Source: Desulfobacula sp. (GTDB lineage Bacteria; Desulfobacterota; Desulfobacteria; Desulfobacterales; Desulfobacteraceae). Taken from it: a stretch of DNA of 64,000 bases. The position numbers and the translations under genes are program-made. Below the pieces are notes generated by a model. The model saw only the letters and a list, made by a program, of their open reading frames with translations. It was not told the origin of the DNA and searched no databases. Positions 39,157 through 53,246 of the stretch are shown piece by piece. Positions within the stretch are counted from its first letter, which is position 1, and the number at the start of each line of letters is the position of its first letter. The DNA is taken from the NCBI RefSeq assembly GCF_030145145.1, contig NZ_JAQYWD010000006.1, forward strand, positions 1 through 64,000. Reading direction: 5' to 3'.

Positions 39157-40935
39157 ATGATTTCAACGAAATATCCCATCTGGAGCCATTCCGGTGATGG
39201 GCGGATAGACCTGAACTGGAAAGAGTTCGGCAATGCCTTGTTAAACGCAACACCGAATGGTATTGCTGTTTTCAGTAAATCCTTTCAAACGATTATATCA
39301 AATAAAATTGCCAGGAGCAGTCTGGATATCTATCCGGGGGCGCTGCTGGATACCACCATTCCTCACCTGAAGACCGCAATTCGAAAAGTCCTGGAAACAA
39401 AACAGACAGTCACAGACATTGAGATTAAAAAAAAAGGCAATAGCTTTTCTGCCCGGCTCAGTCCCATTTATCATGGCACTGAATTTATCGGCATAATGAG
39501 TGTGTTTGAGGACATGACCACCATTGAAAAAATATCCGACCAGATGGTGTCGTATCAGGATCTTTCAATTGAGCTGGACACGATTATCGACAGCAGTAAC
39601 GATGGGTTGTGGATCTGTGATGGAAAAGGGACTGTATTGCGGATCAATCCAGCATCTGAAAAGCTGACTGATATAAAAGCTGCAGAAATTGTCGGTAAAA
39701 ATATCGTGGAACTGGTTGAAAAAAAAATTATTGACAAGTCTGTCACCCTTGAAGTCCTGAAGACGAAAAAAAAAGTCAGCATTATTCAGCAGACAAGGAA
39801 TGGAAAGCAATTGTTTCTAACGGGAAATCCCGTGTTTGATATTCATGGATCTCTTTTCCGGGTCGTGGTGAATGAACGAGACATCACCGACATTACAAAG
39901 CTCCAGCAGAAACTGGAAGAAAAAGCCCAATTGAATGACCAGTATAAAAGAGACCTCCTGGAGAAACAGATTGAAGAAACTGAATTACAGCATATCATTG
40001 CAAAAAGTGATAATTATCTGAAGATTATTCAAAAAGCCATAAAACTGGGCGAAGTTGACTCCACAGTGCTCATATTAGGGGAGTCCGGAACCGGTAAGGG
40101 GGTGATTGCCGATCTGATTCACAAATATTCCACAAGGGGGGATCACCCCATGATCAAAATCAATTGTGGGTCCATCCCCGAGTCCCTTGTGGAAAGCGAA
40201 TTGTTCGGCTATGCAGCCGGTGCATTTACCGGGGCCCGGCAAAAAGGGAAGCCCGGTAAATTTGAACTGGCAGACAAGGGCATCATTTTTCTGGATGAAA
40301 TAGCAGAACTCCCCCTTGGTTCCCAGGTAAAGCTGCTGAAATTTCTGGAAGACGGGGTGATCAGCCGTGTCGGGGGAACAGGGAACAAACACGTGGACGT
40401 GCGCATCATTGCGGCAACCAACCGGGATTTGAAACGGATGATTGAGAAAAAGCAGTTTCGAAGCGACCTGTATTACCGGCTCAATGTGGTGCCGTTGAAA
40501 ATACCGCCTTTGAGGCAGCGCAAAGAATGTCTGGTGCCTTTGATCCATTATTACTTGAATCTTTTTTGTAAAAAATATGAAAAAAAGAAAATGACACCTT
40601 CCAGTGAGGCTCTGGATGCACTTATGACGTATCCATACCCGGGAAATGTCAGGGAGATGATCAATATTTGTGAACGACTGGTGGTCATGTCCCAGAATAA
40701 CACCATCGCTTATAAAGATCTTCCCGGTTCCGTTCAGAAAAAAATAACGGCTGACACGCCTGCCCTTGACGACTGGCACCCGGGTCAAACCCTTCAGGAA
40801 ATGGTTGAGGAGATGGAAAAAAATATTCTGACGACGGTTCTAAAAAAATGTCGTACCCAGGCCAATGCGGCAAAAATACTGGGGCTCAATCAGTCGACCA
40901 TTGCCAGGAAGCTTAAAAAATACCGTCTGGCGTAA
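39157..40935 (+). CDS. PAS-domain sigma-54-dependent transcriptional activator
   Basis: A 592-residue enhancer-binding protein without a receiver domain. Two PAS domains: residues about 15-125 (LLNATPNGIAVFSKSFQTII) and about 140-265 (DTIIDSSNDGLWICDGKGTV, RDITDIT). A short coiled coil leads to the AAA+ domain (about 285-525) with Walker A GESGTGKG, the sigma-54 contact loop GAFTGA, and LDEIAELPL. The C-terminal Fis HTH reads ANAAKILGLNQSTIARKLKKY. A small ligand or redox signal in the PAS domains would control it. A perfect palindrome and a -24/-12 promoter follow the gene, so its first target is probably uspA-ppsA. Confidence 0.95.
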   Translation: MISTKYPIWSHSGDGRIDLNWKEFGNALLNATPNGIAVFSKSFQTIISNKIARSSLDIYPGALLDTTIPHLKTAIRKVLETKQTVTDIEIKKKGNSFSARLSPIYHGTEFIGIMSVFEDMTTIEKISDQMVSYQDLSIELDTIIDSSNDGLWICDGKGTVLRINPASEKLTDIKAAEIVGKNIVELVEKKIIDKSVTLEVLKTKKKVSIIQQTRNGKQLFLTGNPVFDIHGSLFRVVVNERDITDITKLQQKLEEKAQLNDQYKRDLLEKQIEETELQHIIAKSDNYLKIIQKAIKLGEVDSTVLILGESGTGKGVIADLIHKYSTRGDHPMIKINCGSIPESLVESELFGYAAGAFTGARQKGKPGKFELADKGIIFLDEIAELPLGSQVKLLKFLEDGVISRVGGTGNKHVDVRIIAATNRDLKRMIEKKQFRSDLYYRLNVVPLKIPPLRQRKECLVPLIHYYLNLFCKKYEKKKMTPSSEALDALMTYPYPGNVREMINICERLVVMSQNNTIAYKDLPGSVQKKITADTPALDDWHPGQTLQEMVEEMEKNILTTVLKKCRTQANAAKILGLNQSTIARKLKKYRLA

Positions 40936-41093: not shown

Positions 41094-41151
41094 ATAATTG
41101 ATTTAAACCAAAGATAAAGGGGTAATGATTTTTTTTGAAGGGAGACAAAAA

Positions 41152-41604
41152 ATGTATCAAACAATACTGGTCCCGGTGGATGGATCCAAGCGGGCAGAAG
41201 CGATATTGAGTCATATCGAACACCTGGTCAAAGGTAACGATGCCAAAGTGATTTTTTTAAAAGTTGAGGAAGAACCCATTTTACTGGGACGTGACGAGGT
41301 GATTGATACAGAGAAATACTGGAAGGAATATGAGGCGGGAATTGAGCGCTCAAAGGCCTATCTGAACACCCTTAAAACCATGTTTCGTGAGAAAGGAATC
41401 ACTGTTGTCACACGGGTAGCAAGCGGATCGGTCGTTCGGGTAATATTAAGTGTGGCCGCTGAGACCGGCGCTGACCTGATCGCAGTGGCCACTCACGGTT
41501 TCAGCGGTCTGGCCCGGGTATCCTACGGGAGTGTGGCCGCAGGGGTATTGCAGGCGGCCGATATTCCCATTTTACTGATCAGGTCCTGTCACCACAAAAA
41601 ATAG
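41152..41604 (+). CDS. Universal stress protein (UspA family)
   Basis: A 150-residue single-domain protein starting MYQTILVPVDGSKRAEAIL after GGGAG. It carries the ATP-binding pattern GADLIAVATHGFSGLARVSYG (G-x2-G-x9-G-S-type), so it probably binds ATP. An upstream in-frame TTG-type start at 41125 lacks a ribosome binding site. It is preceded by a sigma-54 promoter and followed by the phosphoenolpyruvate synthase gene; a stress link to gluconeogenic metabolism is plausible. Confidence 0.92.
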   Translation: MYQTILVPVDGSKRAEAILSHIEHLVKGNDAKVIFLKVEEEPILLGRDEVIDTEKYWKEYEAGIERSKAYLNTLKTMFREKGITVVTRVASGSVVRVILSVAAETGADLIAVATHGFSGLARVSYGSVAAGVLQAADIPILLIRSCHHKK

Positions 41605-41669
41605 AACCTGGGGGGATGCTTTTAAAAAATAAAACATCATTCCCATCCGCATCCAGCGGTAATTCAGCA

Positions 41670-41698
41670 GGAAGGCAGTGCCTTCATCCTTTTTTTCT
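41670..41698 (+). terminator. Possible terminator/attenuator between uspA and ppsA
   Basis: A GAAGGC-AGT-GCCTTC hairpin (41671..41685), then ATCC and a run of seven T's (41690..41696). The hairpin is small (6 bp, 3-nt loop) and offset from the T-run, so it may be only a partial terminator before the ppsA ribosome binding site (GAAGGAGG). Confidence 0.5.
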
Positions 41699-41728
41699 TC
41701 GTTTTTTAATCTCGAAGGAGGCAAATAA

Positions 41729-44140
41729 ATGAAAGAAACCAGCAAGTATATTCTCTGGTTCAAAGATATCACCAATGATGACGTCGCCCTTGTGGGCGGT
41801 AAAAATGCCTCTCTTGGTGAAATGTATCGCGAACTCATGCCCCAGGGGATTCAAATTCCCAATGGCTTTGCCATAACGGCCCAGGCATATCGTTATGTTA
41901 TTGAAACCGGCGGCATTCTGGAACCACTGAAACACACCATGGCCGGCTTTGATAAAACCAACATTGATGACCTTGCCCGGCGGGGTAAAATGGCCCGGGA
42001 TCTCATCCTGGGAGCCGGCATTCCCGATAGGTTATGGTTAAAAATTCAAACCGCCTATGACCAACTTTGCCAGGAATACGGTGCGGATACGGATGTCGCT
42101 GTCAGAAGTTCTGCCACGGCTGAAGATCTTCCAACAGCATCATTTGCCGGTCAGCAGGAAACCTATCTGAACATTCGCGGTTACCATGATCTCCGGCAGG
42201 CCTGCAGCAAATGTTTTGCATCCCTTTTTACGGACCGGGCCATCTCCTATCGCATTGACAATCGGTTTGACCATTTTGATGTGGCGCTTTCCATCGGTGT
42301 GATGAAAATGATCCGTTCGGATCTGGCTTCAAGCGGTGTTATTTTTACGCTGGATACGGAAAGTGGTTTCCGGGACGTCATTTTTACCACCGGCGCCTAC
42401 GGCCTGGGGGAAAACGTTGTTCAGGGCGTTGTCAACCCTGATGAATTTTATGTATTCAAGCCCACACTCAGAAAAGGGCACCCTGCGATTATCAAAAAGC
42501 TTCTCGGGTCAAAAAAGATCAAAATGGTCTATGGCATGGGTGATTCCAAAGCATTAACACGAAATATTGAGGTTCCTGAAACCGACCGGCGGCAATTCTG
42601 TATTTCCGATGATGATATTTTAACCCTGGCCAGGTATGCGGATGTTATTGAAACGCATTATTCCACAAAAGCCGGCATGGTTCGGCCAATGGATATTGAA
42701 TGGGCCAAAGATGGGATTACCGGTGATCTGTTCATTGTTCAGGCCAGACCGGAAACCGTCCATTCCCAGACATCATTGGATACACTGGAAACCTATGTTC
42801 TGGAGGGCAAAGGTCCGGTCCTGGTCCTCGGCAAAAGTGTCGGTGAAAAGATTGCCGTGGGCAAGGCCCGTCTGATCCATAATCTTTCGCATTTGGATGA
42901 ATTCCAACCGGGAGAGATCCTGGTGTCCAATACCACCACCCCGGACTGGGAACCGGTGATGAAAACCGCGGCAGGCATTGTTACCAACCGGGGGGGCAGG
43001 ACGTGCCATGCTGCCATTGTCAGTCGTGAACTGGGCATTCCGGCAGTTGTGGGGGCTGAAAATGCCATGGAAACCATTAGGACCGGACAGGAAATCACCA
43101 TCAGCTGTGCTGACGGGGACAATGCGGTTGTTTATGACGGGTACCTGCCCTATCATGTTGAAACGGTCAGTCTCACAAACCTTGAGCGCCCCCGGACTAA
43201 AATTATGATGAACCTCGGCAATCCTGAAAAAGCATTTTCGTTGTCCAAAATTCCCAATGACGGTGTGGGTCTGGCCCGCATGGAATTTATCATTAACAGT
43301 TACATCAAAATACATCCCATGGCATTGATTCATCCCGAAAAGGTTGAAAATAAGCTCGAAATCGCCGAGATCCACCGGCTGACCTATGGGTATGCAAACA
43401 AAGCCGAGTATTTTATTGAAAAACTTTCCCAGGGGGTGGGCACGATTGCCGCCTCGTTTTATCCCAAACCCGTCATCGTACGGATGAGTGACTTCAAGAC
43501 CAACGAATATGCCAGCCTGATCGGCGGCCGATATTTTGAACCCCGGGAAGAAAACCCCATGATCGGTTTCCGGGGAGCTTCCCGGTATTATGATCCCCGC
43601 TACAGAGAAGGATTTGGACTGGAATGCAAGGCCATTAAGCGGGTTCGGAATGACATGGGATTAACCAATCTGATTGTCATGATTCCCTTTTGCCGGCGGG
43701 TGGAGGAAGGCGAAAAAGTGCTGGAAGAAATGCAGAAAAACGGTTTGTGCCGTGGTGAAAACGGGTTAAAAGTGTATGTGATGTGCGAAATTCCCAATAA
43801 TATCCTGAGGGTGGATGAATTCAGCCGGTTGTTTGATGGATTCTCCATCGGGTCCAATGATTTAACCCAGTTAACACTGGGGGTTGACCGGGATTCTGAA
43901 CTGGTCGCCCATGATTTTGAAGAACGGGACCCCGGGGTCATGAATTTTGTGGCCATGGCCATTGAAGGTGCCCGCCGAAATAACCGGCACAGTGGTATCT
44001 GCGGGCAGGCCCCCAGTGATTATCCGGAATTTGCCGAATTTCTGGTAAAAAAAGGGATTGATTCGATTTCCCTGACACCGGATTCCATCATGAAAACAAC
44101 CCTGAAAATCATTGAACTGGAAAAACATCTCCCTGTATAA
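41729..44140 (+). CDS. ppsA: Phosphoenolpyruvate synthase
   Basis: An 803-residue enzyme that converts pyruvate and ATP to PEP for gluconeogenesis. The N-terminal nucleotide-binding domain has VALVGGKNASLGEM, DVAVRSSATAEDLPTASFAG and RPMDIEWAKDG. The phosphohistidine domain has GGRTCHAAIVSRELG near residue 426. The C-terminal TIM barrel carries GSNDLTQLTLGVDRDS near 709 and the catalytic Cys in GICGQAPSD near 757. Length is normal. The ribosome binding site GAAGGAGG is strong. It fits growth on acetate, CO2 or organic acids, where PEP must be made from pyruvate. Confidence 0.96.
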   Translation: MKETSKYILWFKDITNDDVALVGGKNASLGEMYRELMPQGIQIPNGFAITAQAYRYVIETGGILEPLKHTMAGFDKTNIDDLARRGKMARDLILGAGIPDRLWLKIQTAYDQLCQEYGADTDVAVRSSATAEDLPTASFAGQQETYLNIRGYHDLRQACSKCFASLFTDRAISYRIDNRFDHFDVALSIGVMKMIRSDLASSGVIFTLDTESGFRDVIFTTGAYGLGENVVQGVVNPDEFYVFKPTLRKGHPAIIKKLLGSKKIKMVYGMGDSKALTRNIEVPETDRRQFCISDDDILTLARYADVIETHYSTKAGMVRPMDIEWAKDGITGDLFIVQARPETVHSQTSLDTLETYVLEGKGPVLVLGKSVGEKIAVGKARLIHNLSHLDEFQPGEILVSNTTTPDWEPVMKTAAGIVTNRGGRTCHAAIVSRELGIPAVVGAENAMETIRTGQEITISCADGDNAVVYDGYLPYHVETVSLTNLERPRTKIMMNLGNPEKAFSLSKIPNDGVGLARMEFIINSYIKIHPMALIHPEKVENKLEIAEIHRLTYGYANKAEYFIEKLSQGVGTIAASFYPKPVIVRMSDFKTNEYASLIGGRYFEPREENPMIGFRGASRYYDPRYREGFGLECKAIKRVRNDMGLTNLIVMIPFCRRVEEGEKVLEEMQKNGLCRGENGLKVYVMCEIPNNILRVDEFSRLFDGFSIGSNDLTQLTLGVDRDSELVAHDFEERDPGVMNFVAMAIEGARRNNRHSGICGQAPSDYPEFAEFLVKKGIDSISLTPDSIMKTTLKIIELEKHLPV

Positions 44141-44326: not shown

Positions 44327-46090
44327 TTAGAAGCCTGGTTCTCCCTGGGGGATGCCCTTTTCATTCCATCCCCTTAATTTGTAATACTCCTGTACCATCT
44401 GGGTCAACTCGTCTGCTGAAATGCCTTTTCCGTTTTCAAGTTTTTCGTTGAGAAGCCGTTTGGGCAAAAAGTCATCCTCAACGGTCAGGCCTTCCCTGAG
44501 ATTGAATTTGCGGGTGTCATTGGTAATCCGGGAGGCCAGAGCCTTTAAATCGGGTTTTGAAAATTCAACCCCCGTGGTCATCGAGAAAAGTTTGGACAAT
44601 TCTTCCCAGGGATAAAAATCCCTGTAAAATCGGCACAGGATAAAGGCATCAAACAGGGTGCAGCGGTCTTCAAAATCCAGAAACAGTTCCGCCTTATGGT
44701 CAATCTGGTCCGGGTCAATCATGCCGGACAGTTCTGCTTTGTAAAACGTGCTTCTCAAGTGACACGCCCCCCTTGGGCTGACGGAATAGGCCAGGGCCAT
44801 GCCCTTTAAGACCCTTGGGTCATACCCGGCCGGTTCAAGTCCTTTAACATGGATGGCTTCATCGGCCATGCTCATTTCTGCACTGGCGGATTTGATCCCC
44901 TCGGCAATCAGGCCGCCCAGGCCCTCCCGTTTGGCTGTCTTGAAAAGAAGATCCGCCACTGCCTCGGCATCGCCATAGGTATAGGTCTCATTGATTTTAC
45001 CCTTTTGGGAGGCCTCAATGGTCAATGCAGCCAGATTCCCGGCACTCATGGTATCCATGCCCAGGCGGTCACAGATGTCGTTGAGCCATGCAATATCTTC
45101 GATGCTGTCGATCATGCACAGGCCGCCAAATGCATAGATGGTCTCATATTCAGGGCCTTCCAGTTTCAATCCTTTGTGTTTTCCTTCATTAATGGTCACA
45201 TATTTTCCGCAGCCCATGAAACATGTTTTGCAGGATCGGGGTTTGGCATTTAACCGGTCCTTCATGCTCTGGGCATTGATTTTTTCCCAATGGTCACACG
45301 TTCCCCTGGACCAGTATTTTGCAGGGAAGGCACCGGCATTGTTGAGCCCCGCCACCATGACCGGGGTCCCCTGGTTTCTGTAGGTCTCTGTAGCCGCGTG
45401 GTTTTTCAGTTTCTTGAGCATATTTTTTGAATAGTGCTTTATTTGATCCGGATCATGAAATTCGCGTTGCTGACTGCCATGGAAAACAAGACCCTTGATT
45501 TTTTTTGAACCCAGAACAGCTCCCATGCCGGTTCTTCCGGCAGATCGCCAATAATCGTTTTCCACCACTGCAAACCGCACCAGATTCTCACCAGCAGGCC
45601 CAATAACCAGGGCGGCAGCATCTTTTTGTCCGCAGAGCGCCTTTAACTGGTCTTCTGTTTCATAGGTGTCCTTTCCCCAGAGATTTTCAGCATCATGGAA
45701 TAAAATGGCTGTGTCGGAAATTTCAAGCCACACCGGTTTTTGGGCCTCACCTTTGAGCAGAATGCAGTCATATCCCGTCCGGCTGATGGATACGGCAGCC
45801 TTTCCGCCGGAATAGGATTCTGCGTAAAAACCGGTTAACGGTGATTTGGAAAAAATACCATATCGGCAGCTCCCGTAAATCAAGCTGTCTGTGACAGGAC
45901 CCAACCCGATAATAAAATGGTTGTCCGGTGACAGGGGATCGACCCCGGGGGGGTTGTGTTTTAGCAGCAGGTGCGTTGCCAGTCCCTTGCCGCCCATGTA
46001 CATTTTTAGTGTCTGATCATCAATGTCCTGAACCTGTGTTGTCTGGTGGGTAACATCAATGATGACAAGACGGTTGAAAAATCCTTTCAT
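44327..46090 (-). CDS. aor: Aldehyde:ferredoxin oxidoreductase (tungsten type)
   Basis: A 587-residue bis-tungstopterin enzyme that oxidises aldehydes to acids with ferredoxin. The N-terminal domain has MYMGGKGLATHLLL, FSKSPLTGFYAESYSGG and RTGMGAVLGSKKIKG (pterin contacts). The [4Fe-4S] ligands are SCKTCFMGCGK near residue 287, with a distal Cys in FDAFILCRF near 485; AYSVSPRGACHLRS is also typical. Length is normal for the family. It lies downstream of gabT on the same strand (104-nt gap), so it can oxidise the semialdehyde formed by that transaminase. The substrate is inferred from context. Confidence 0.93.
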   Translation of the reverse strand: MKGFFNRLVIIDVTHQTTQVQDIDDQTLKMYMGGKGLATHLLLKHNPPGVDPLSPDNHFIIGLGPVTDSLIYGSCRYGIFSKSPLTGFYAESYSGGKAAVSISRTGYDCILLKGEAQKPVWLEISDTAILFHDAENLWGKDTYETEDQLKALCGQKDAAALVIGPAGENLVRFAVVENDYWRSAGRTGMGAVLGSKKIKGLVFHGSQQREFHDPDQIKHYSKNMLKKLKNHAATETYRNQGTPVMVAGLNNAGAFPAKYWSRGTCDHWEKINAQSMKDRLNAKPRSCKTCFMGCGKYVTINEGKHKGLKLEGPEYETIYAFGGLCMIDSIEDIAWLNDICDRLGMDTMSAGNLAALTIEASQKGKINETYTYGDAEAVADLLFKTAKREGLGGLIAEGIKSASAEMSMADEAIHVKGLEPAGYDPRVLKGMALAYSVSPRGACHLRSTFYKAELSGMIDPDQIDHKAELFLDFEDRCTLFDAFILCRFYRDFYPWEELSKLFSMTTGVEFSKPDLKALASRITNDTRKFNLREGLTVEDDFLPKRLLNEKLENGKGISADELTQMVQEYYKLRGWNEKGIPQGEPGF

Positions 46091-46194
46091 CTATGATTCC
46101 TAACCCGGCTGAAAAACCGGTGTTTCACAATTTGGTCATCTATCGGTCCGGCCTTTGTCCCGCGCTTCAGGCAAAGGCCGGCAGGATTAAAAAA

Positions 46195-47502
46195 TTATCG
46201 GGCCACTTCTTCCAGGCTTTCTTCAAGAATGGAAAGCCCCTTATCCAGCTGTTCATCTGTGATGACAAAGGGCATAAGGGTTCGCATGACATTGCCGAAG
46301 TTACCGCAGGACAAAAGCACCAATCCTTTATCATAGCAGATCTGGGTCAGGCGCTTGGCTTCTTCGGTTGCCGGCTCCTTGGTGTGCCTGTCCTTGACAA
46401 GTTCAAGGGCCAGCATGGGACCTTTGCCCCGGACGTCACCGATGATTTCATGGGATTTCTGGAGGTCTGTAAATCGCTCGATCAGTGTGTCTCCCAGTTC
46501 TTTGGATCGTTCAAGGAGTTTGTCCTCAAACAAAATTTCCAGGACAGCCAGTGCCGCTTTGCAGGATATTGGGTTGCCACTGTAAGTGCCACCCAGTCCG
46601 CCAGGATGGGGGGCATCCATGAGTTCCTGCCGGCCGGTGATGGCGCTCAGGGGCATACCGCCTGCAAGGCTTTTGGCCATGGTGATGATATCCGGCTCAA
46701 TTCCCCAATGTTCAATGGCAAGGAATTTTCCGGTTCGACCGGCACCGGACTGTACTTCATCAAGGATCAGGAGGATACCGTATTTTTTACAGATGTCAGC
46801 CAGTCTGGGGAAATATTCCGGCGGCGGTGTAACAAATCCGCCTTCTCCCTGAATCGGTTCAGCAATGATGGCAGCAACTGTTTCAGGGTCAACATGGGTG
46901 ATAAAATAGGATTCCAGATAGTCGACACAGGCCATATTGCAGTCCGGATACTTACATCCCAAAGGACACCGGTAACAATAGGGGTAGGGGATGCGGTAAA
47001 CTTCCGGGACAAAGGGTCCGAAACCATATTTATAGGGTTTGATCTTGCTGGTCAGGGACATGGTCAGCAGGGTCCGGCCATGGAAGCCGTTTTCAAAGGC
47101 TATAACCGCCGGTCGTTTGGTGGCATATTTGGCAATTTTGATGGCATTTTCAACGGCTTCGGCCCCGCTGTTTGCAAACATGGATCGTTTGGCAAAATTT
47201 CCCGGGGTCAGTTCATTGAGCCGGGCTGCCAGTTCAATATAGGAATCATACATGCCCACATGGAAGCAGGTGTGAATAAATTGATCGGCCTGGTCTTTTA
47301 TGGCTTTGACCACCTTTGGATGGGAGTGGCCCACATTGTTAACACCAATACCGCCTGCAAAATCGATGAACTCTTTACCGTCCACATCGGTCATGATAGC
47401 ACCGGACGCTTTTTTGATAATGGCCTGGGTGATGTTGGCCGGTCCCTGGGCGACATGTTCCTGGCGTAATTTTTGAAAGTATTCTGATTGAGTGGAAGTC
47501 AT
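46195..47502 (-). CDS. gabT: 4-Aminobutyrate-type aminotransferase (class III, PLP)
   Basis: A 435-residue pyridoxal-phosphate transaminase of the GabT/omega-amino acid group. It has FIDFAGGIGVNNVGHSHPKVV, the PLP contact MFANSGAEAVENAIKIA, LILDEVQSGAGRTGKF and the PLP lysine in TMAKSLAGGMPLSAI near residue 273. It converts an omega-amino acid plus 2-oxoglutarate or pyruvate to a semialdehyde plus glutamate or alanine. A 5-aminovalerate or beta-alanine enzyme would look alike. Preceded by a good minus-strand sigma-54 promoter. It shares its control region with the divergent TRAP transporter operon. Confidence 0.92.
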   Translation of the reverse strand: MTSTQSEYFQKLRQEHVAQGPANITQAIIKKASGAIMTDVDGKEFIDFAGGIGVNNVGHSHPKVVKAIKDQADQFIHTCFHVGMYDSYIELAARLNELTPGNFAKRSMFANSGAEAVENAIKIAKYATKRPAVIAFENGFHGRTLLTMSLTSKIKPYKYGFGPFVPEVYRIPYPYCYRCPLGCKYPDCNMACVDYLESYFITHVDPETVAAIIAEPIQGEGGFVTPPPEYFPRLADICKKYGILLILDEVQSGAGRTGKFLAIEHWGIEPDIITMAKSLAGGMPLSAITGRQELMDAPHPGGLGGTYSGNPISCKAALAVLEILFEDKLLERSKELGDTLIERFTDLQKSHEIIGDVRGKGPMLALELVKDRHTKEPATEEAKRLTQICYDKGLVLLSCGNFGNVMRTLMPFVITDEQLDKGLSILEESLEEVAR

Positions 47503-47637
47503 CTTGTATTCTCCGCTTTAATATATTATTGATTGTCTGTATGCTGGTGGGCAGACCGGTTTAGTTAAGGAAGCGCCCATTTTATTCCTGGTATTCTTCA
47601 TCAACAAACCCGGGGTCAATTCCAAACGGGGATCAAT

Positions 47638-47656
47638 ATTGCAAATCCCATGCCAT
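47638..47656 (-). promoter_or_regulatory. Sigma-54 promoter upstream of gabT
   Basis: On the minus strand it reads TGGCATGGGATTTGCA, with GG (47653..47654) and GC (47641..47642) exactly 10 nt apart; only one or two positions differ from TGGCAC-G-N4-TTGCA. The start is predicted near 47628, 126 nt before the gabT ATG. Confidence 0.75.
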
Positions 47657-47762
47657 CAACCGGGATTTATCCACTTTGTACTGGAAAGGGCTATCATCAA
47701 TGGGATCTCTCTGATTTTCCATTAAAATCAACCATGGGTTTTCAGGTGAATCAATGCGTTTG

Positions 47763-47785
47763 TGCATAAAAATGCAATGCTGCAT
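47763..47785. promoter_or_regulatory. Candidate shared activator site, triple TGCAT element
   Basis: TGCAT-AAAA-ATGCA-ATGC-TGCAT: three half-sites with alternating orientation and 4-nt spacers. It lies between the two divergent sigma-54 promoters, about 110 nt above the gabT promoter and about 185 nt above the dctP promoter. That is the range for an enhancer-binding protein. The binding protein is not identified. Confidence 0.5.
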
Positions 47786-47965
47786 AAACAGAGCTTCAGA
47801 TCCCGGGCAGACAGATTAAGAAACCCTGTAACCGATGGAATGCAGCGGTAAAACATACGGATAAATATGCAATATTACATAATCGCATCCAAAATGTTGG
47901 AACACAGCAGGGGGTAACGGATAGAAAAAATTTCGCCAGTGAGGGATAGCAGCTGTTTTCCTTTC

Positions 47966-47983
47966 TTGGCACACCCTTTGCAA
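47966..47983 (+). promoter_or_regulatory. Sigma-54 promoter upstream of dctP
   Basis: TTGGCACACCCTTTGCAA, with GG (47968..47969) and GC (47980..47981) exactly 10 nt apart, a near-perfect -24/-12 element. The start is predicted near 47993, about 107 nt before dctP. The rest of the 47503..48099 gap shows no gene. Confidence 0.85.
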
Positions 47984-48099
47984 ATCAAAAGATCCCATGG
48001 CATCATGGTGGGTGCGTTAGTCGGGTAAACGGGGTTGCAGATCAAAAAAACAATGATTTTAGACGATGAATAAAAACACTATTTTAAAGGGAGAAAACA

Positions 48100-49155
48100 A
48101 TGTTGCTGAACAAGAAATTTTTTTCATTGAGCCTTATCATGGCATGCATTTTTTCAATGATGATGATGACCGGATTTGAAAAGTCCTTTGTAAAATCCGC
48201 CCACGCGGCCAAGACGTATAAATTAACAATGCAGAATATGTTTTCTCTGAATCATCCCATTTCCGTTGCAATTAATCAAATGGCAGCAGATGTGAAAAAG
48301 CAGAGCAATGGCCAGATTTCGATTCGGGTTCTGCCTTCGGGTGCCCTGGTAAAAGGACCCAGTATCTTTGAATCCGTGAGCATGGGATCCATTGACATGG
48401 GGACCACCTGCAGCTGCTACCACAGTGGTATCCTGCCTGTGGCAGCAACGGCGTTTGCGCTTCCCGGGGATCCTCGAGGGGTAAAGGAAATTATTGAGTT
48501 CATTAATCAGGAAGAGGTCATGGCGTTTTTCAGGAATGCCTATGCCACCCAGAATGTTTTTTTTGGTGCCCCCCTTGTCATGGACGGCTATACCATTGTG
48601 TCTAAAAAGCCCATTAATAGCTGGGAAGATCTGAAAAAGATGAAAGTCCGGGCATCGGGTTCCATTGCAAAAGCCTTGAGAAAAATGGATATCCCCACGG
48701 TTTTTATTCCCTTTTCCGAGATCTATGTGGCCCTTTCCCGGGGGACCATTGACGCCGAGATCAGCGGCAATCATGCTGAAAGTTTTCTGGCAAAGACCTA
48801 CGAGGTGGCAAAATATCAGACCGTTCCATATATATCCGGTGCCCAGAACTGTGAAGTGATTGTCAACCAGGACAGGTGGAATGAACTTCCGGAAAACCTG
48901 CAAGCCATCTTTGAAAAAGCGCTTCAAGAGTGTTCGCTCAAGGTGGCTGAATTGTTTGACGCTGAAAACAAAGAGGTGATGGACAAAATGACGGCCAAGG
49001 GTGCGCAATTTGTAAAGCTTCCCGATGAGGTGATGAGCCGATGGATAAAGACAGCCGTTCAGATGTGGGATGAAGAATTGACCCAGGATAAATTGTCTGC
49101 AGAATATATTGGCCTTGCGAAAAAACATCTGAAAAGTCTGGGGTATGACCTATAA
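48100..49155 (+). CDS. dctP: TRAP transporter solute-binding protein (DctP family)
   Basis: A 351-residue extracytoplasmic binding protein. The N-terminus MLLNKKFFSLSLIMACIFSMMMMTG is a signal segment, with a likely cut at SAHA-AKTYK. The mature part has the DctP pattern: MQNMFSLNHPISVAINQMAAD, SIFESVSMGSIDMGTTCSCY, WEDLKKMKVRASGS and the TRAP Arg region followed by FSEIYVALSRGTIDAE. It binds a carboxylate-type ligand in most relatives. First gene of dctPQM and preceded by a strong sigma-54 promoter. Ligand unknown. Confidence 0.93.
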   Translation: MLLNKKFFSLSLIMACIFSMMMMTGFEKSFVKSAHAAKTYKLTMQNMFSLNHPISVAINQMAADVKKQSNGQISIRVLPSGALVKGPSIFESVSMGSIDMGTTCSCYHSGILPVAATAFALPGDPRGVKEIIEFINQEEVMAFFRNAYATQNVFFGAPLVMDGYTIVSKKPINSWEDLKKMKVRASGSIAKALRKMDIPTVFIPFSEIYVALSRGTIDAEISGNHAESFLAKTYEVAKYQTVPYISGAQNCEVIVNQDRWNELPENLQAIFEKALQECSLKVAELFDAENKEVMDKMTAKGAQFVKLPDEVMSRWIKTAVQMWDEELTQDKLSAEYIGLAKKHLKSLGYDL

Positions 49156-49227
49156 ATAACCCATCATCATTCCTTTTGGATATCATATCCAATGGTATCC
49201 AAAAGGCGTAACTATATAGGAATAAAA

Positions 49228-49737
49228 ATGCAACCCATAGAAAGAACGATACATTTTATAGAAAAAATAAACATGAAGGTTGGCAAGGCATCCTGCTACC
49301 TGATTTTTGTGTTCATGTTTTTGATGGTATTTGAAGTCATTGCACGATATTTTTTCCAAAGTCCCACCATCTGGGTACATGAAATGTGCGGCTATCTTTT
49401 CGCCGCCTATATTGCCCTGACCGGTGGGTGGGTTCTCCTTGAAAAAGGACATGTGGCCGTGGACATTATTTACCAGTATTTTCCCAGAAAAGTTAAATAC
49501 ACGGCTGACATCGTGGTGTCCATGGTGGCCCTGTTCATGTTCCTGGTACTGTTCTGGCAGGGATATAAATTTGCCTGGCATGCCTTTTCAACGGGCCAGC
49601 ATTCCCATACCCTTTTCGGTCCGGTTTTATGGCCGGTAAAAAGCCTGCTTCCCATTGGATCTGTTTTTTTTATTCTTCAGATACTGGCAGATCTGGGCAA
49701 AACTATTTTGGAATTTAAAAAAGGGAGTGTACAATGA
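49228..49737 (+). CDS. dctQ: TRAP transporter small permease subunit (DctQ)
   Basis: A 169-residue integral membrane protein with four hydrophobic segments (YLIFVFMFLMVFEVIARYFF first). ARYFF followed by WVHEMCGYLFA matches the DctQ signature. I take the ATG at 49228 because GGAA lies a few bases upstream; an in-frame ATG at 49192 would add 12 basic residues. Overlaps dctM by 4 nt. Confidence 0.9.
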   Translation: MQPIERTIHFIEKINMKVGKASCYLIFVFMFLMVFEVIARYFFQSPTIWVHEMCGYLFAAYIALTGGWVLLEKGHVAVDIIYQYFPRKVKYTADIVVSMVALFMFLVLFWQGYKFAWHAFSTGQHSHTLFGPVLWPVKSLLPIGSVFFILQILADLGKTILEFKKGSVQ

Positions 49738-51056
49738 ATCCCGCATTAATCGTATTACTCATGTTTGTGGCCGTCATTGTTCTTTTTGTGATGCGGACAC
49801 CGGTGGCCTTTACCCTGGGCAGTGTGGGCATCGTTTCGTTGTACCTGATAAACGGGCCGAGATTTTTACAAATGCTGCCACCGTCCATCATTGAAAATAT
49901 GACCAGTATCATCCTCTTGGCCATCCCCTTGTTTATTTTCATCGGCTGCATACTGGAAAGATCCGGTATTGCCGATGAAATTTTTGAAATGATTTACAAG
50001 TGGCTGGGTCCGGTGCCCGGCGGGCTGGCTATCGGAACCGTCCTGATCTGTGTGATATTTGCCGCCATGGTGGGTATTGTGGGTGCTGCAACGGTTACCA
50101 TGGGCCTGATTGCCCTTCCGGCCATGCTCAAAAGAAATTACAAGACCTCCCTTGCCATTGGTTGCATTTCCGGCGGCGGTGCCCTGGGCTTTTTAATCCC
50201 GCCCAGTGTGACCATGATTGTGTATGCCTCCTTATCCAACCTGTCCATCGGAAAAATGTTTCTGGCCGGCATTATACCGGGATTATTGCTGGCCACTCTC
50301 TTCATTTCCTATATCCTGATCAGAAGCCTGATAAATCCGGAACTTGCCCCGCCGATTCCCGTGGAAGAAAGGGCCACCTGGACGGAAAAATGGGTGTCGG
50401 TCAAAAATCTGGCCCTGCCCTTTATCTTGATTTTTTCCATTATGGGCACTATTTTTTCAGGACTTGCAACCCCCACTGAGGCGGCCGCCGTGGGAGCGGT
50501 TGTGGCCATGGCGATTGTTGTTTTCAGGATGAAATCCTTTAAAAAATCCATGCCAGTGGTGGCCAATGCAGCTGAAAAAGCAGCTTTTCTGACCAGTATG
50601 GTATTGTGGATTATTATCGGATGCCTTGCCTTTTCTGCTGTGGTTAATACCCTGGGACTTCCCATGTTGTTAAAGGACCTTATCGATTCCATCGGACTCA
50701 ACCGGTGGTCTGTCCTCATTGCCATGCAGATCAGTTTCTTCTTGTTGGGAATGGTGATGGATGATCTTCCCATCATTATGATCACGGTCCCCATTTATGT
50801 CCCGTTAATTACCCTTCTCGGGTTTAATCCCCTGTGGTTCGGGATCCTTTTTATCGTCAATATGCAAATGGCGTATCTGACACCACCCTTTGGGTTTGTT
50901 CTGTTTTATATGAAAGGGGTTGTACCGCCAGGCGTTACCATGGGAGATATTTATAAGTCTGTCTGGCCGTTTATCGGACTGCAGACAGTGTGTTTAATCC
51001 TGATCATGGTATTTCCTGAAATCGTGTTGTGGCTTCCTTCCTATTTTGGTATGTAA
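49734..51056 (+). CDS. dctM: TRAP transporter large permease subunit (DctM)
   Basis: A 440-residue membrane protein with about twelve hydrophobic segments and the DctM signatures FAAMVGIVGAATVTMGLIA, ISGGGALGFLIPPSVTMIVY and GLATPTEAAAVGAV. It forms a sodium-coupled importer with DctP and DctQ. The ATGA overlap with dctQ couples their translation. It is followed by moaD-like and CoA-transferase genes on the same strand. Confidence 0.95.
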   Translation: MNPALIVLLMFVAVIVLFVMRTPVAFTLGSVGIVSLYLINGPRFLQMLPPSIIENMTSIILLAIPLFIFIGCILERSGIADEIFEMIYKWLGPVPGGLAIGTVLICVIFAAMVGIVGAATVTMGLIALPAMLKRNYKTSLAIGCISGGGALGFLIPPSVTMIVYASLSNLSIGKMFLAGIIPGLLLATLFISYILIRSLINPELAPPIPVEERATWTEKWVSVKNLALPFILIFSIMGTIFSGLATPTEAAAVGAVVAMAIVVFRMKSFKKSMPVVANAAEKAAFLTSMVLWIIIGCLAFSAVVNTLGLPMLLKDLIDSIGLNRWSVLIAMQISFFLLGMVMDDLPIIMITVPIYVPLITLLGFNPLWFGILFIVNMQMAYLTPPFGFVLFYMKGVVPPGVTMGDIYKSVWPFIGLQTVCLILIMVFPEIVLWLPSYFGM

Positions 51057-51131
51057 TTTGCTGAATATTATACAATATATCAAGTGATCTTCCCTTTTTG
51101 CGGAAGAGACCATAAAGGAAACCTTTTGGGA

Positions 51132-51398
51132 GTGACGATCATTATTCCGATTACCCATCGGATTTATGCCAATGGGCAAAAACAGATTGAAACAGATTCA
51201 AAAAATCTCAAAGAAGCGATAATGGCCCTTTATCATGCCTGTCCGGATATGAAGGGTCATGTCATGGATAAAAATAACAGGCTCTATGCCGGTATGGAAA
51301 TAGCGGTTAACGATGACATCGTCTTTCCGTGGAATCCTGAGAAGCCGTTAAATCATGGGGATGAGATTCGTATTTCAAGTATTATCACCGGGGGGTGA
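51132..51398 (+). CDS. MoaD/ThiS-type sulfur-carrier protein
   Basis: An 88-residue beta-grasp protein ending in the exposed Gly-Gly (IRISSIITGG) needed for thiocarboxylate formation. GTG start at 51132 with AAGGA upstream; an extension to 51084 is possible but unlikely. Such paralogues are often encoded near tungsten enzymes, where they supply the molybdopterin dithiolene sulfur. Lying between the transporter and CoA-transferase genes, opposite the aor transcript, it most likely serves the aldehyde oxidoreductase, which is inference. Confidence 0.8.
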   Translation: MTIIIPITHRIYANGQKQIETDSKNLKEAIMALYHACPDMKGHVMDKNNRLYAGMEIAVNDDIVFPWNPEKPLNHGDEIRISSIITGG

Positions 51399-51488
51399 TC
51401 CTGTTGCTTCAGGGCAAAAGGATGAACTGAGAGCACAATAAATGATGAAATCCTAAACGGAATGGATTTTCAAATACGAGGTATGTGA

Positions 51489-52466
51489 ATGGATATAAAC
51501 AGCAATAAAATTACAAATTTAAAAGATGCCGTCCATCAATATGTAACCCCGGGTTGCCATCTGTCCATCGGTGGTTTCACCATTAACCGGAATCCCATGG
51601 CTGCCGTTTATGAAATTATCCGGCAGGAGATTAAGGATATCCACCTTTACGCCCATTCCAACGGACAGGGGGTTGATGAGCTCGTGGGGGCCGGTTGTAT
51701 CGCCCGCCTTGAAATCGCCTATGGGGGGACCGGCAAATTCATGTCCACCTGTATCCGGTTCCGAAAAGCCGTAGAAGAAAAAAAGATACAAATTGAAGAC
51801 TATTCCAATTACCAGATGACCCTTCGATTCCTGGCCGGGTCCATGGGAATCCCTTTTCTTCCCACCCGGTCTTCCCTTGGCACAGATATTATTCATAAAT
51901 GGGGATTGTCCCGGGAGTTGCGGCAGGATACTCCAAAGGTGCCCGACCAGAAGCTGGTTGTGCTGGACAATCCCTTTGGCAACTGGTGTGACACAAAACG
52001 GGTGGTGCTGGTTCCGGCCATTAATCCGGATGTCACCATTATCCATGTCCAGCAGGCCGATTACCGGGGAAACTGCCGAATCGACGGGTTGACCTTTGCT
52101 GATGTGGAACAGGCAAAGGCCGCAAAAGTGCTGATCATCACCTGTGAGGATCTGCTGGATGACGATTATTTGAAAAATGATCCTGACCGGAATCAAATTC
52201 CGTTTATCCATGCAGATGCTGTTGTTCATATTCCCTATGGTGCCTATCCCACAGCCTGCTTTGGGTGTTACGATTATGACCCGGTCTACTTGAAAGAATA
52301 TTCCCGAATGGCCAAGGAGGATATCCTGTTCCAAACCTATCTGGACAATAATATATATAAAAAGAATAGCCATCGGGACCTGCTGAATTCAGTGGGCAGA
52401 GAACGGCTTGAAAATATTATGGCGGATAAAAACAGGGGCTATGCAAAAAAACTGGATCGAAGATAA
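51489..52466 (+). CDS. gctA: CoA transferase subunit A (glutaconate CoA-transferase type)
   Basis: A 325-residue alpha subunit of a class I CoA transferase. It has LKDAVHQYVTPGCHLSIGGF near the N-terminus, PMAAVYEIIRQE, LIITCEDL and FIHADAVVHIPYGAYPTACF, the pattern of GctA/IpdA. It moves CoA from a donor such as acetyl-CoA to a dicarboxylate. Paired with the subunit B gene 12 nt downstream. The exact acid (glutaconate, glutarate or another) cannot be told from sequence. Confidence 0.87.
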   Translation: MDINSNKITNLKDAVHQYVTPGCHLSIGGFTINRNPMAAVYEIIRQEIKDIHLYAHSNGQGVDELVGAGCIARLEIAYGGTGKFMSTCIRFRKAVEEKKIQIEDYSNYQMTLRFLAGSMGIPFLPTRSSLGTDIIHKWGLSRELRQDTPKVPDQKLVVLDNPFGNWCDTKRVVLVPAINPDVTIIHVQQADYRGNCRIDGLTFADVEQAKAAKVLIITCEDLLDDDYLKNDPDRNQIPFIHADAVVHIPYGAYPTACFGCYDYDPVYLKEYSRMAKEDILFQTYLDNNIYKKNSHRDLLNSVGRERLENIMADKNRGYAKKLDRR

Positions 52467-52478
52467 TAGAACGGAGAG

Positions 52479-53246
52479 ATGTCCATGGAATATACATTAA
52501 AAGAGATGATGACCCTTGTCGCAGCCAGGGAAATCCGGAACAATGATATCGTTTTCTGCGGTACCGGCATTTCCATGCTGGCGGCCATGGCTGCCAAAAA
52601 TATCAATGCACCCCAGAGTGTTATTTTCTTTGAAACCGGGGCCATTGATTCCAAACTCGAAGATCTTCCCCTTGCGGTGGCAGATTCGAGAATCATGTAC
52701 CAGTCCTCATCCAATGCCGGTCTTCTGGAAGCCTTTGCCACCATGCAGAACCAGATAACGGGGGCGCATATCGTGGGAATCCTGGGGGCAGCCCAGATTG
52801 ATATTTACGGGAATCTGAACTCCACCGTGATCGGTGATTATGATGAACCGGATGTGCGGTTCTCCGGCAGCGGGGGCGCCTGTGATGTGGCGTCTTTTGT
52901 GTCAAGAACCATTATATTCATGACACAGGAAAAGCGTAAATTTAAAACCCGCCTGGACTATCTGACAAGTCCCGGGTATCTGGATGGGCCGGGAGCACGA
53001 AAAAAAGCCGGTCTACCCGGGGGAGGCCCGGATAAAGTCGTGACCAACATGGGGGTGATGGCCTTTGATGATGTGACCTGCCAGATGTATCTGAAAGGGT
53101 ATTATCCCGGCATAACACCGGAAAACATTCTGGAGAATATGGAGTTTCACATTGATATTTCCCGGGCCAGTGAAGTGTTGCCCCCAACCCCGGAGGAGTT
53201 GACCCTTTTGAGAGAAACATGTGATCCCCAGCGGTTGATATTGTAG
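52479..53246 (+). CDS. gctB: CoA transferase subunit B (glutaconate CoA-transferase type)
   Basis: A 255-residue beta subunit. The catalytic Glu is in VIFFETGAIDSK near residue 52, close to the Glu54 of the A. fermentans enzyme. The family segments GAHIVGILGAAQIDIYGNLNS and VRFSGSGGACDVAS are present. ACGGAGAG lies before the start, and a second in-frame ATG 6 nt later is equally possible. It completes the enzyme of the gctA-gctB operon, ending about 120 nt before a separate signalling cluster. Confidence 0.88.
   Translation: MSMEYTLKEMMTLVAAREIRNNDIVFCGTGISMLAAMAAKNINAPQSVIFFETGAIDSKLEDLPLAVADSRIMYQSSSNAGLLEAFATMQNQITGAHIVGILGAAQIDIYGNLNSTVIGDYDEPDVRFSGSGGACDVASFVSRTIIFMTQEKRKFKTRLDYLTSPGYLDGPGARKKAGLPGGGPDKVVTNMGVMAFDDVTCQMYLKGYYPGITPENILENMEFHIDISRASEVLPPTPEELTLLRETCDPQRLIL

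Follow-up and report, generated by a model that had tools for sequence, protein, structure and literature searches.

The aerobic DavT–DavD and GabT–GabD routes, found in Pseudomonas and E. coli, transaminate an omega-amino acid and then oxidize the semialdehyde with an NAD(P) aldehyde dehydrogenase as the second enzyme; the clostridial fermentations of 5-aminovalerate and 4-aminobutyrate (GABA) run via hydroxyacids, the semialdehyde being reduced. Here, we report on a stretch of DNA from Desulfobacula sp., presumably a sulfate reducer, bases 1-64000 of contig C42 in a genome of 5.66 Mb and 89 contigs (the whole 64-kb stretch is called the window below), in which two divergent operons, gabT-aor and dctPQM-moaD-gctAB, are quite likely to form a module under sigma-54 control for the breakdown of C4/C5 omega-amino acids (4-aminobutyrate, 5-aminovalerate or both). 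Like the aerobic routes, the predicted pathway combines transamination with semialdehyde oxidation, and with the clostridial fermentations, it would share both the substrates and the transamination; unlike either, the semialdehyde is here most likely oxidized by a ferredoxin-reducing aldehyde:ferredoxin oxidoreductase (AOR), probably a tungsten enzyme, in the place of the usual NAD enzyme.

Single parts of the module have described counterparts too. According to PMC9765128, an amino-acid-derived aldehyde is likewise oxidized by an AOR in the phenylalanine route of Aromatoleum aromaticum, although there the substrate is aromatic and the enzyme an AorABC complex. For the Desulfococcus multivorans genome, PMC5109826 gives three AORs and one NAD enzyme as aldehyde dehydrogenases, with the aor3 product present in all conditions tested. 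Pyrococcus furiosus formaldehyde ferredoxin oxidoreductase (FOR; 1B25, 1B4N) is of the AOR family, with Glu308, Tyr416 and His437 as well as arginines 481 and 492 aligned to the module AOR, but it is archaeal and distant (323.5 bits, under the 358 of P. furiosus AOR). The best solved relative of both GctA and GctB is the glutaconate CoA-transferase 1POI, which we take to be the Acidaminococcus fermentans enzyme; the module's GctAB keeps its Glu but sits with TRAP, GabT and AOR, or with glutaryl-CoA dehydrogenase, and its substrate is predicted. The pathway steps are already known, and what is new, as far as found, is the ferredoxin-linked semialdehyde oxidizer in this pairing and in a fusion described below. 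The sequence-only reading of this DNA knew of no description of the combination, and the open-access literature that we searched (titles and abstract openings, subscription papers lying outside the scope) likewise returned no GabT with an AOR, no 5-aminovalerate or GABA oxidation via AOR and no aminotransferase–AOR fusion.

Gene set and predicted route

With family calls made by scores against curated Pfam and NCBIfam cut-offs, all eight genes named by the sequence-only reading are present, as open reading frames (ORFs) and as families, at the following positions:

44327..46090, minus strand: aor, FOR-like aldehyde:ferredoxin oxidoreductase, 587 aa (PF02730 and PF01314 over cut-off)
46195..47502, minus strand: gabT, class-III omega-aminotransferase of the GABA transaminase type, 435 aa (PF00202; TIGR00700)
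48100..49155, plus strand: dctP, TRAP solute-binding protein, 351 aa (PF03480, 143 bits)
49192..49737, plus strand: dctQ, TRAP small permease (PF04290 over cut-off)
49734..51056, plus strand: dctM, TRAP large permease (PF06808 and TIGR00786 over cut-off)
51084..51398, plus strand: MoaD/ThiS-like sulfur carrier, 104 aa, C-terminal Gly-Gly (weak match)
51489..52466, plus strand: gctA, CoA-transferase subunit A, glutaconate type (CoA_trans; 1POI chain A)
52479..53246, plus strand: gctB, CoA-transferase subunit B, glutaconate type (CoA_trans; 1POI chain B)

GabT scores 567.5 bits against the GABA transaminase equivalog TIGR00700 (cut-off 506.65) and falls below the cut-offs of narrower GABA-transaminase models, e.g., PRK06918 (594 vs. 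676); in a HMMER alignment, it is identical to E. coli GABA aminotransferase (1SF2) at the Arg141, Glu211, Lys268 and Arg398 positions, which we take to be the key residues of that enzyme. The DctP, DctQ and DctM domains of the TRAP transporter are all over the Pfam cut-offs. GctA and GctB match chains A and B of 1POI at 238 and 215 bits, the second-best solved chains reaching 101 and 40 bits, and the Glu of the ETG in GctB aligns with that of the ESG-type motif in 1POI, presumably the nucleophile. The MoaD-like protein is a weaker call (PF02597, ThiS, 25.2 bits vs. 22.5; TIGR01687, 27.9 bits, under 49.5), and since only L046, L049 and L056 among the fetched GctA loci have homologues, the gene is an optional part of the module.

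These families suggest a route whose substrates and reaction directions are predictions. The TRAP transporter would import the substrate, or a precursor or related acid, and GabT would transaminate the omega-amino acid to succinic or glutaric semialdehyde; the FOR-like AOR would oxidize the semialdehyde to succinate or glutarate, with ferredoxin as the predicted electron acceptor, and GctAB would transfer CoA to the dicarboxylate. On the C5 side, glutaryl-CoA would pass to glutaryl-CoA dehydrogenase and glutaconyl-CoA decarboxylase, and on the C4 side, succinyl-CoA would enter central metabolism. Such an order of import, transamination, AOR oxidation and CoA activation had been outlined in the earlier reading, and it gains support from genes in relatives that may replace or extend its steps and from a FOR-type double arginine in the AOR.

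Conservation and control of the two operons

The sequence-only reading would have been refuted if the two operons never occurred together elsewhere, and they do co-occur in other genomes, although some genomes with GctAB are exceptions. A search for GctA in 145 relatives gave a match in 100, and wide flanks were obtained for 40 chosen stretches and later for more; the resulting tally covers 48 loci, some of them from a search of genome contigs (the duplicate L111 of L053 removed), with L041, L073 and L197 holding GctA outside it. Of the 23 tallied loci whose GctA is 66% identical or more, 15 have GabT in the same cluster, a count consisting of 12 from the automatic tally plus the window, L052 and G042, added from other evidence: the GabT of L052 is cut by the contig end and that of G042 (L064) lies just beyond the stretch (L113). 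GctA places of at least 66% in G021, G058, G075, G077 and G079 are outside the tally, and in G079 (L197), GabT is on the same contig as GctA. The ORF caller keeps the longer of overlapping ORFs, and real genes hidden under antisense ORFs (GabT in the window and L132, GctA in L073 and L197, AOR in L203 and L212) affect this 48-locus tally.

The counts of AOR flanks were made by tblastn and are free of such masking. AOR was sought in the 145 relatives and 395 phylum genomes, and flanks of 1.5 kb were checked for the 57 best places. Where AOR is at least 69% identical, GabT adjoins it in 14 of the 15 fetched loci, the window included (the miss, L149, is contig-cut, and places of this identity in G025 and G075 are outside the 15); the pairing falls to 10/15 at 59-68% identity, one of these (L154) resting on 48 residues, and to 1/27 below 59%, so that pairing with GabT characterizes one section of a larger AOR clade. 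At 9 of these 27 places, the flanks match an iron alcohol dehydrogenase (in two cases the match is weak or a short end); two such dehydrogenases were profile-scanned, with no equivalog over the cut-off. AORs with arginine at the position discussed below stand beside an iron alcohol dehydrogenase in L151, L153, L159, L166, L168, L172, L174 and L177, and the AOR–dehydrogenase pairs perhaps serve omega-hydroxy acids or sulfo compounds. Judged by gene order, the gene set of the window is a conserved module.

The additional genes in relatives' clusters fit omega-amino acids and their acids, and those that would replace or extend individual steps of the route comprise, for C4, an agmatine set and an aminotransferase–AOR fusion and, for C5, glutaryl-CoA dehydrogenase with what is probably a glutaconyl-CoA decarboxylase. 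Lactam-hydrolase-like genes also occur, as does an aldehyde oxidoreductase of the molybdenum type. In G057 (L050), agmatine deiminase (TIGR03380, 528 vs. 382 bits) and N-carbamoylputrescine amidase (TIGR03381, 449 vs. 410) are followed by gctAB, and the cluster encodes a 1066-aa fusion of putrescine aminotransferase (PatA; PRK11522, 634 vs. 612; TIGR03372, 492, below 659) and AOR. By similarity, G044 (L052) has the same agmatine genes and fusion, and both agmatine genes lie beside gctAB in G005 (L051); agmatine-pathway genes adjoin gctAB in these 3 loci, 2 of which hold the fusion in the cluster. On a different contig of G005 (L181), the fusion comes after GabT–AOR, in G139 (L182), PatA and AOR do so as two genes, and the phylum search gave two further fusions, L201 and L202. 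The joined proteins, each a putrescine-type aminotransferase with a whole AOR, are at the following places:

L050:13111-16308, minus strand: PatA–AOR fusion
L052:3480-6644: PatA–AOR fusion
L181:10135-13287: PatA–AOR fusion
L201: PatA–AOR fusion
L202: PatA–AOR fusion

For the C5 side, the G042 cluster has TRAP, GabT, AOR (52% identical) and GctAB together with glutaryl-CoA dehydrogenase (NF045552, 753 vs. 470), a sodium-pump decarboxylase beta subunit (TIGR01109, 506 vs. 191), a carboxyltransferase (by Pfam only, with no equivalog) and a molybdenum aldehyde oxidoreductase (NF045668, 1499 vs. 1100); the two decarboxylase genes probably encode glutaconyl-CoA decarboxylase. Six of the 48 loci (L039, L055, L064, L068, L070, L076) have glutaryl-CoA dehydrogenase no more than ~10 kb away from GctA, and GcdB is near GctA in a seventh, L054. 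In G053 (L060), GabT stands beside a molybdenum-type aldehyde oxidoreductase of 659 bits, below the cut-off of 1100, the gene being cut by the stretch, and a hydantoinase-type pair (L060:4376-8405) between GabT and gctAB has caprolactamase models as its best matches, below cut-off; lactams are perhaps a source of omega-amino acids at this locus. Molybdenum-type aldehyde oxidoreductases beside GabT, replacing the AOR or besides it, were seen at L123:2809-5562 and L060:1-2334.

The operons diverge from a gap of 597 bases between gabT and dctP. In a scan for the -24/-12 consensus with 11 scored positions, this gap holds the sole two 11/11 sigma-54 sites of the whole 64 kb, one per strand and divergent, in agreement with the matching sigma-54 promoters proposed earlier; at 10/11 or better, the window has 8 sites, whereas 20 mononucleotide shuffles averaged 2.5. 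The elements of control are the following:

47640..47655, minus strand: sigma-54 promoter of gabT-aor, TGGCATGGGATTTGCA, 11/11, 138 bases from the gabT start, kept in relatives
47772..47785, no strand: palindrome ATGCA-N4-TGCAT, putative activator site between the two promoters, the window's only copy
47967..47982, plus strand: sigma-54 promoter of dctPQM-moaD-gctAB, TGGCACACCCTTTGCA, 11/11, 118 bases from the dctP start
39157..40935, plus strand: PAS–sigma-54 activator, 592 aa (Sigma54_activat, PAS and Fis-type helix-turn-helix over the Pfam cut-offs)

The scan covered 18 gaps, the one in the window and 17 from relatives, the short gap of L052 being left out. All 11 other divergent gabT//transporter gaps (L046, L056, L058, L195, L196, L198, L061, L063, L066, L050, L123) have a site of at least 10/11 in each direction, and so does the gap of L060, where GabT is opposite the hydantoinase-type gene; a single site is present in L181 and in L053, whose gap is next to gctA, and the scan gave zero sites in L190, L193 and the 65-base gap of L185. 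The palindrome is present in 15 of 16 module gaps (L190 is the one without it; L195 and L185 are not in the set), whereas 300 first-order Markov shuffles gave 0.06 on average and never more than 1. This expectation overstates the contrast because the gaps come from related genomes and are the very ones in which the motif was discovered, through a search that tried many arms and spacings; the excess is still large. Genome-wide, the palindrome occurs in 7 places and the reversed pattern in 0. The other six copies are inside ORFs and lack, up to 800 bases away, any sigma-54 site scoring 10 or 11, and a regulon defined by the palindrome thus gained no further operon.

The PAS–sigma-54 activator is most likely the regulator of the module. 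Of the 15 fetched loci whose AOR shows 69% identity or more, 14 have a homologue of this activator next to AOR, and it is therefore likely to be the protein that reads the palindrome, from which it would switch on both operons. The sole exception to the adjacency is the window itself, where uspA and ppsA, the genes for UspA and phosphoenolpyruvate synthase at 41125-44140, separate the regulator from aor. The best NCBIfam match of the activator is PrdR (NF041552), the proline reductase regulator; at 454 bits, below the cut-off of 795, we rejected this identity in favor of a related PAS–sigma-54 activator. Both the regulator gene and the palindrome are additions to the sequence-only reading, which had neither.

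A charge position in the oxidoreductase

The module AOR has both the AFOR_N and the AFOR_C domain over cut-off and conserves, at the second-shell positions, the Glu, Tyr and His of P. furiosus FOR named above. It carries Arg at both FOR positions 481 and 492, ungapped between the two in the HMMER alignment, a MAFFT alignment displacing the first Arg by one column. In FOR, these arginines presumably hold the far carboxylate of bound glutarate, and the conserved cysteine before the second of them is, we assume, the fourth iron-sulfur ligand. PMC12096430 gives glutaric dialdehyde as the substrate with the lowest Km for P. furiosus FOR and reports glutarate in the crystal. Among 107 AOR sequences examined, the pattern R-x9-C-R is present in 55 of the 55 clade members (at least 52% identical to the window AOR) and in P. 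furiosus FOR and in none of the other 51. With the motif columns left out, FOR groups with the module's Arg clade at an SH-aLRT of 91, with no bootstrap, a long FOR branch and 31 chosen rows, and the local support in a FastTree run was 62; this grouping is not firm.

In 10 sequences, the position of the second Arg is Asp (a CDF motif). These are the five fusions (L050, L052, L181, L201, L202), the AOR after PatA in L182, and L204-L207, which show no PatA within 1.5 kb and have an OTCase-like gene and Fe-S proteins among their neighbors: every AOR that is joined to PatA or comes after it, six in all, has Asp, and not all Asp-type AORs are known with PatA. Two distant paralogues in the host's own genome, L108 and L109, which are without the Glu/Tyr/His set, have Asp in the same column. 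Of the 100 rows that made up the tree set once 7 distant paralogues had been dropped (L203 and L212 gave no AOR row), 56 have Arg, 10 have Asp and 26 of the 34 others have Leu. When the motif columns are taken out of the alignment of 31 chosen rows, the AOR of L182 sits beside a Leu-type paralogue at an SH-aLRT of 99, and a single Asp clade is rejected with a p-AU of 1e-45, on a quick tree and for a group named after an earlier tree was seen; Asp, therefore, has apparently evolved on two or more occasions, each of which involves a PatA-linked member.

The distribution of Arg, Asp and Leu suggests a charge code for the choice of aldehyde. Tentatively, as a proposal that we hold to be somewhat less likely than not, the residue right after the conserved cysteine would set the aldehyde of the AOR, with Arg for an omega-carboxylate (e.g., succinic or glutaric semialdehyde), Asp for an omega-ammonium group (4-aminobutanal) and Leu for a neutral aldehyde, and some Desulfobacterales would run a PatA-fused Asp-type AOR followed by the GabT-side Arg-type AOR, burning agmatine or putrescine to succinate with both aldehyde oxidations yielding reduced ferredoxin; the window would then hold the Arg-type half. 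The position makes AOR specificity testable directly by single substitutions.

Competing explanations and the host genome

A C4 route from GABA and a C5 route from 5-aminovalerate can both be drawn in the host, and we choose neither. The restriction to C5 is possible though doubtful: 5-aminovalerate, coming from proline, lysine or cadaverine, would be the only substrate and GctAB would make glutaryl-CoA for a non-decarboxylating glutaryl-CoA dehydrogenase and a sodium-pumping glutaconyl-CoA decarboxylase. GctAB being nearest to glutaconate CoA-transferase, the six loci with glutaryl-CoA dehydrogenase near GctA and L054 with GcdB, the union of both halves in the single cluster of G042 and the glutaryl-CoA dehydrogenase of the host (777 bits vs. 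470, ~1.5 kb from a carboxyltransferase gene and near an IclR regulator) all speak for it, but relatives with agmatine genes have GctA 76-77% identical and a group of 8 rows in the Gct tree that holds the window mixes C4 and C5 contexts (support 93, not starred). Separating C4 from C5 by the GctA+GctB tree, a quick one with one very-long-branch outgroup row, failed with these mixed contexts. That GABA alone, from putrescine or from outside, is converted to succinyl-CoA seems rather unlikely. In its favor, L050 and L052 surround GabT–AOR and gctAB with AguA, AguB and the PatA–AOR fusion, PatA–AOR or PatA plus AOR comes after GabT–AOR in L181 and L182, GabT passes the GABA-transaminase equivalog and a host aminobutyraldehyde dehydrogenase adjoins a class-III aminotransferase; however, bacteria of this kind have further ways of turning succinate into succinyl-CoA, so that a glutaconate-type CoA-transferase kept for this purpose would be surprising, and glutaryl-CoA genes recur beside GctAB.

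It is improbable, in our view, that TRAP–GctAB is a separate unit for the uptake and activation of a dicarboxylate (glutarate) that merely neighbors a GABA operon. L047 and L072 do show TRAP–GctAB in ~20 kb of sequence that matches neither GabT nor AOR, and in G006, GctAB is beside GcdB (L054) and TRAP–AOR–GabT is on another contig (L185), but the latter places TRAP, AOR and GabT together on one strand, and the common gap with paired sigma-54 sites and the palindrome is kept in relatives. Class-III aminotransferases of the GabT kind can take beta-alanine or taurine, and the iron alcohol dehydrogenases by sister AORs best match a sulfoacetaldehyde reductase model, if far below its cut-off (362 vs. 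700 bits); a different short anionic substrate, beta-alanine via malonic semialdehyde or taurine via sulfoacetaldehyde, is nevertheless only faintly conceivable, with GabT passing the GABA-transaminase equivalog and no annotated neighbor over the cut-off of a malonate or sulfonate model among the part of the neighbors that was annotated. As for the AOR, it could be a general aldehyde scavenger or an acid reductase running in reverse rather than a specific semialdehyde oxidizer: many AORs are regarded as detoxifying (PMC12096430), and the host genome has 21 AOR-family matches, ~19 of them genes over cut-off. The tight GabT–AOR pairing, the aminotransferase–AOR fusions and the conserved double arginine make this very improbable.

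Several observations weigh against the reading of the locus as a module for C4/C5 omega-amino acids. No GabT is seen near 8 of the 23 close GctA loci, four of which run into a contig end on one side (L049, L051, L054, L057) and four of which do not (L048, L055, L059, L062), nor at 5 of the 15 AOR loci of 59-68% identity, and transporters are swapped between relatives. DctP resembles lactate or keto-acid binders, its best solved relatives being 2ZZV (104 bits), lactate-binding TTHA0766 constructs and a keto-acid binder; naming its ligand from these was tried and gave no decision. AORs are often considered aldehyde detoxifiers, again according to PMC12096430, and an NAD-type aminobutyraldehyde dehydrogenase of the host (732 vs. 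615 bits) adjoins a class-III aminotransferase, named by eye from the sequence, on contig C56, so not every aldehyde step need use an AOR. Finally, the only host decarboxylase beta subunit over cut-off, 53% like that of G042, lies on a contig other than that of glutaryl-CoA dehydrogenase, and the C5 route is thus not complete in one place. If the module reading is nonetheless true, it would give a physiological role to a large, apparently uncharacterized branch of tungsten aldehyde oxidoreductases and back the proposal that FOR is in fact a glutaric semialdehyde enzyme, and the breakdown products of polyamines and amino acids could serve sulfate reducers in sediments as a source of low-potential ferredoxin.

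In favor of the module reading, among 8 aldehyde dehydrogenase matches in the host, the six long ones were classified and none is over the cut-off of a succinic semialdehyde dehydrogenase model. Over cut-off among these six are betaine-aldehyde, aminobutyraldehyde, glutamate-semialdehyde and piperidine-6-carboxylate types, the remaining two being a partial gene and a CoA-acylating type below cut-off. A second GabT-like–AOR pair in the host genome (L104:541-3704) was left out of the module because its AOR is Leu-type and its aminotransferase under the GABA cut-off. Similarly, a Thorarchaeota metagenome-assembled genome with GabT divergent from a GctA-like gene (L040:8311-10951) was not counted, owing to its annotated neighbors (peptide-binding proteins, an amidohydrolase and a transporter) and to best AORs of only 37-38% identity. 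A gene for hydroxylamine reductase (hybrid-cluster protein) was seen near gctAB at L057:4556-6310, L058:6679-8514, L196 and L060.

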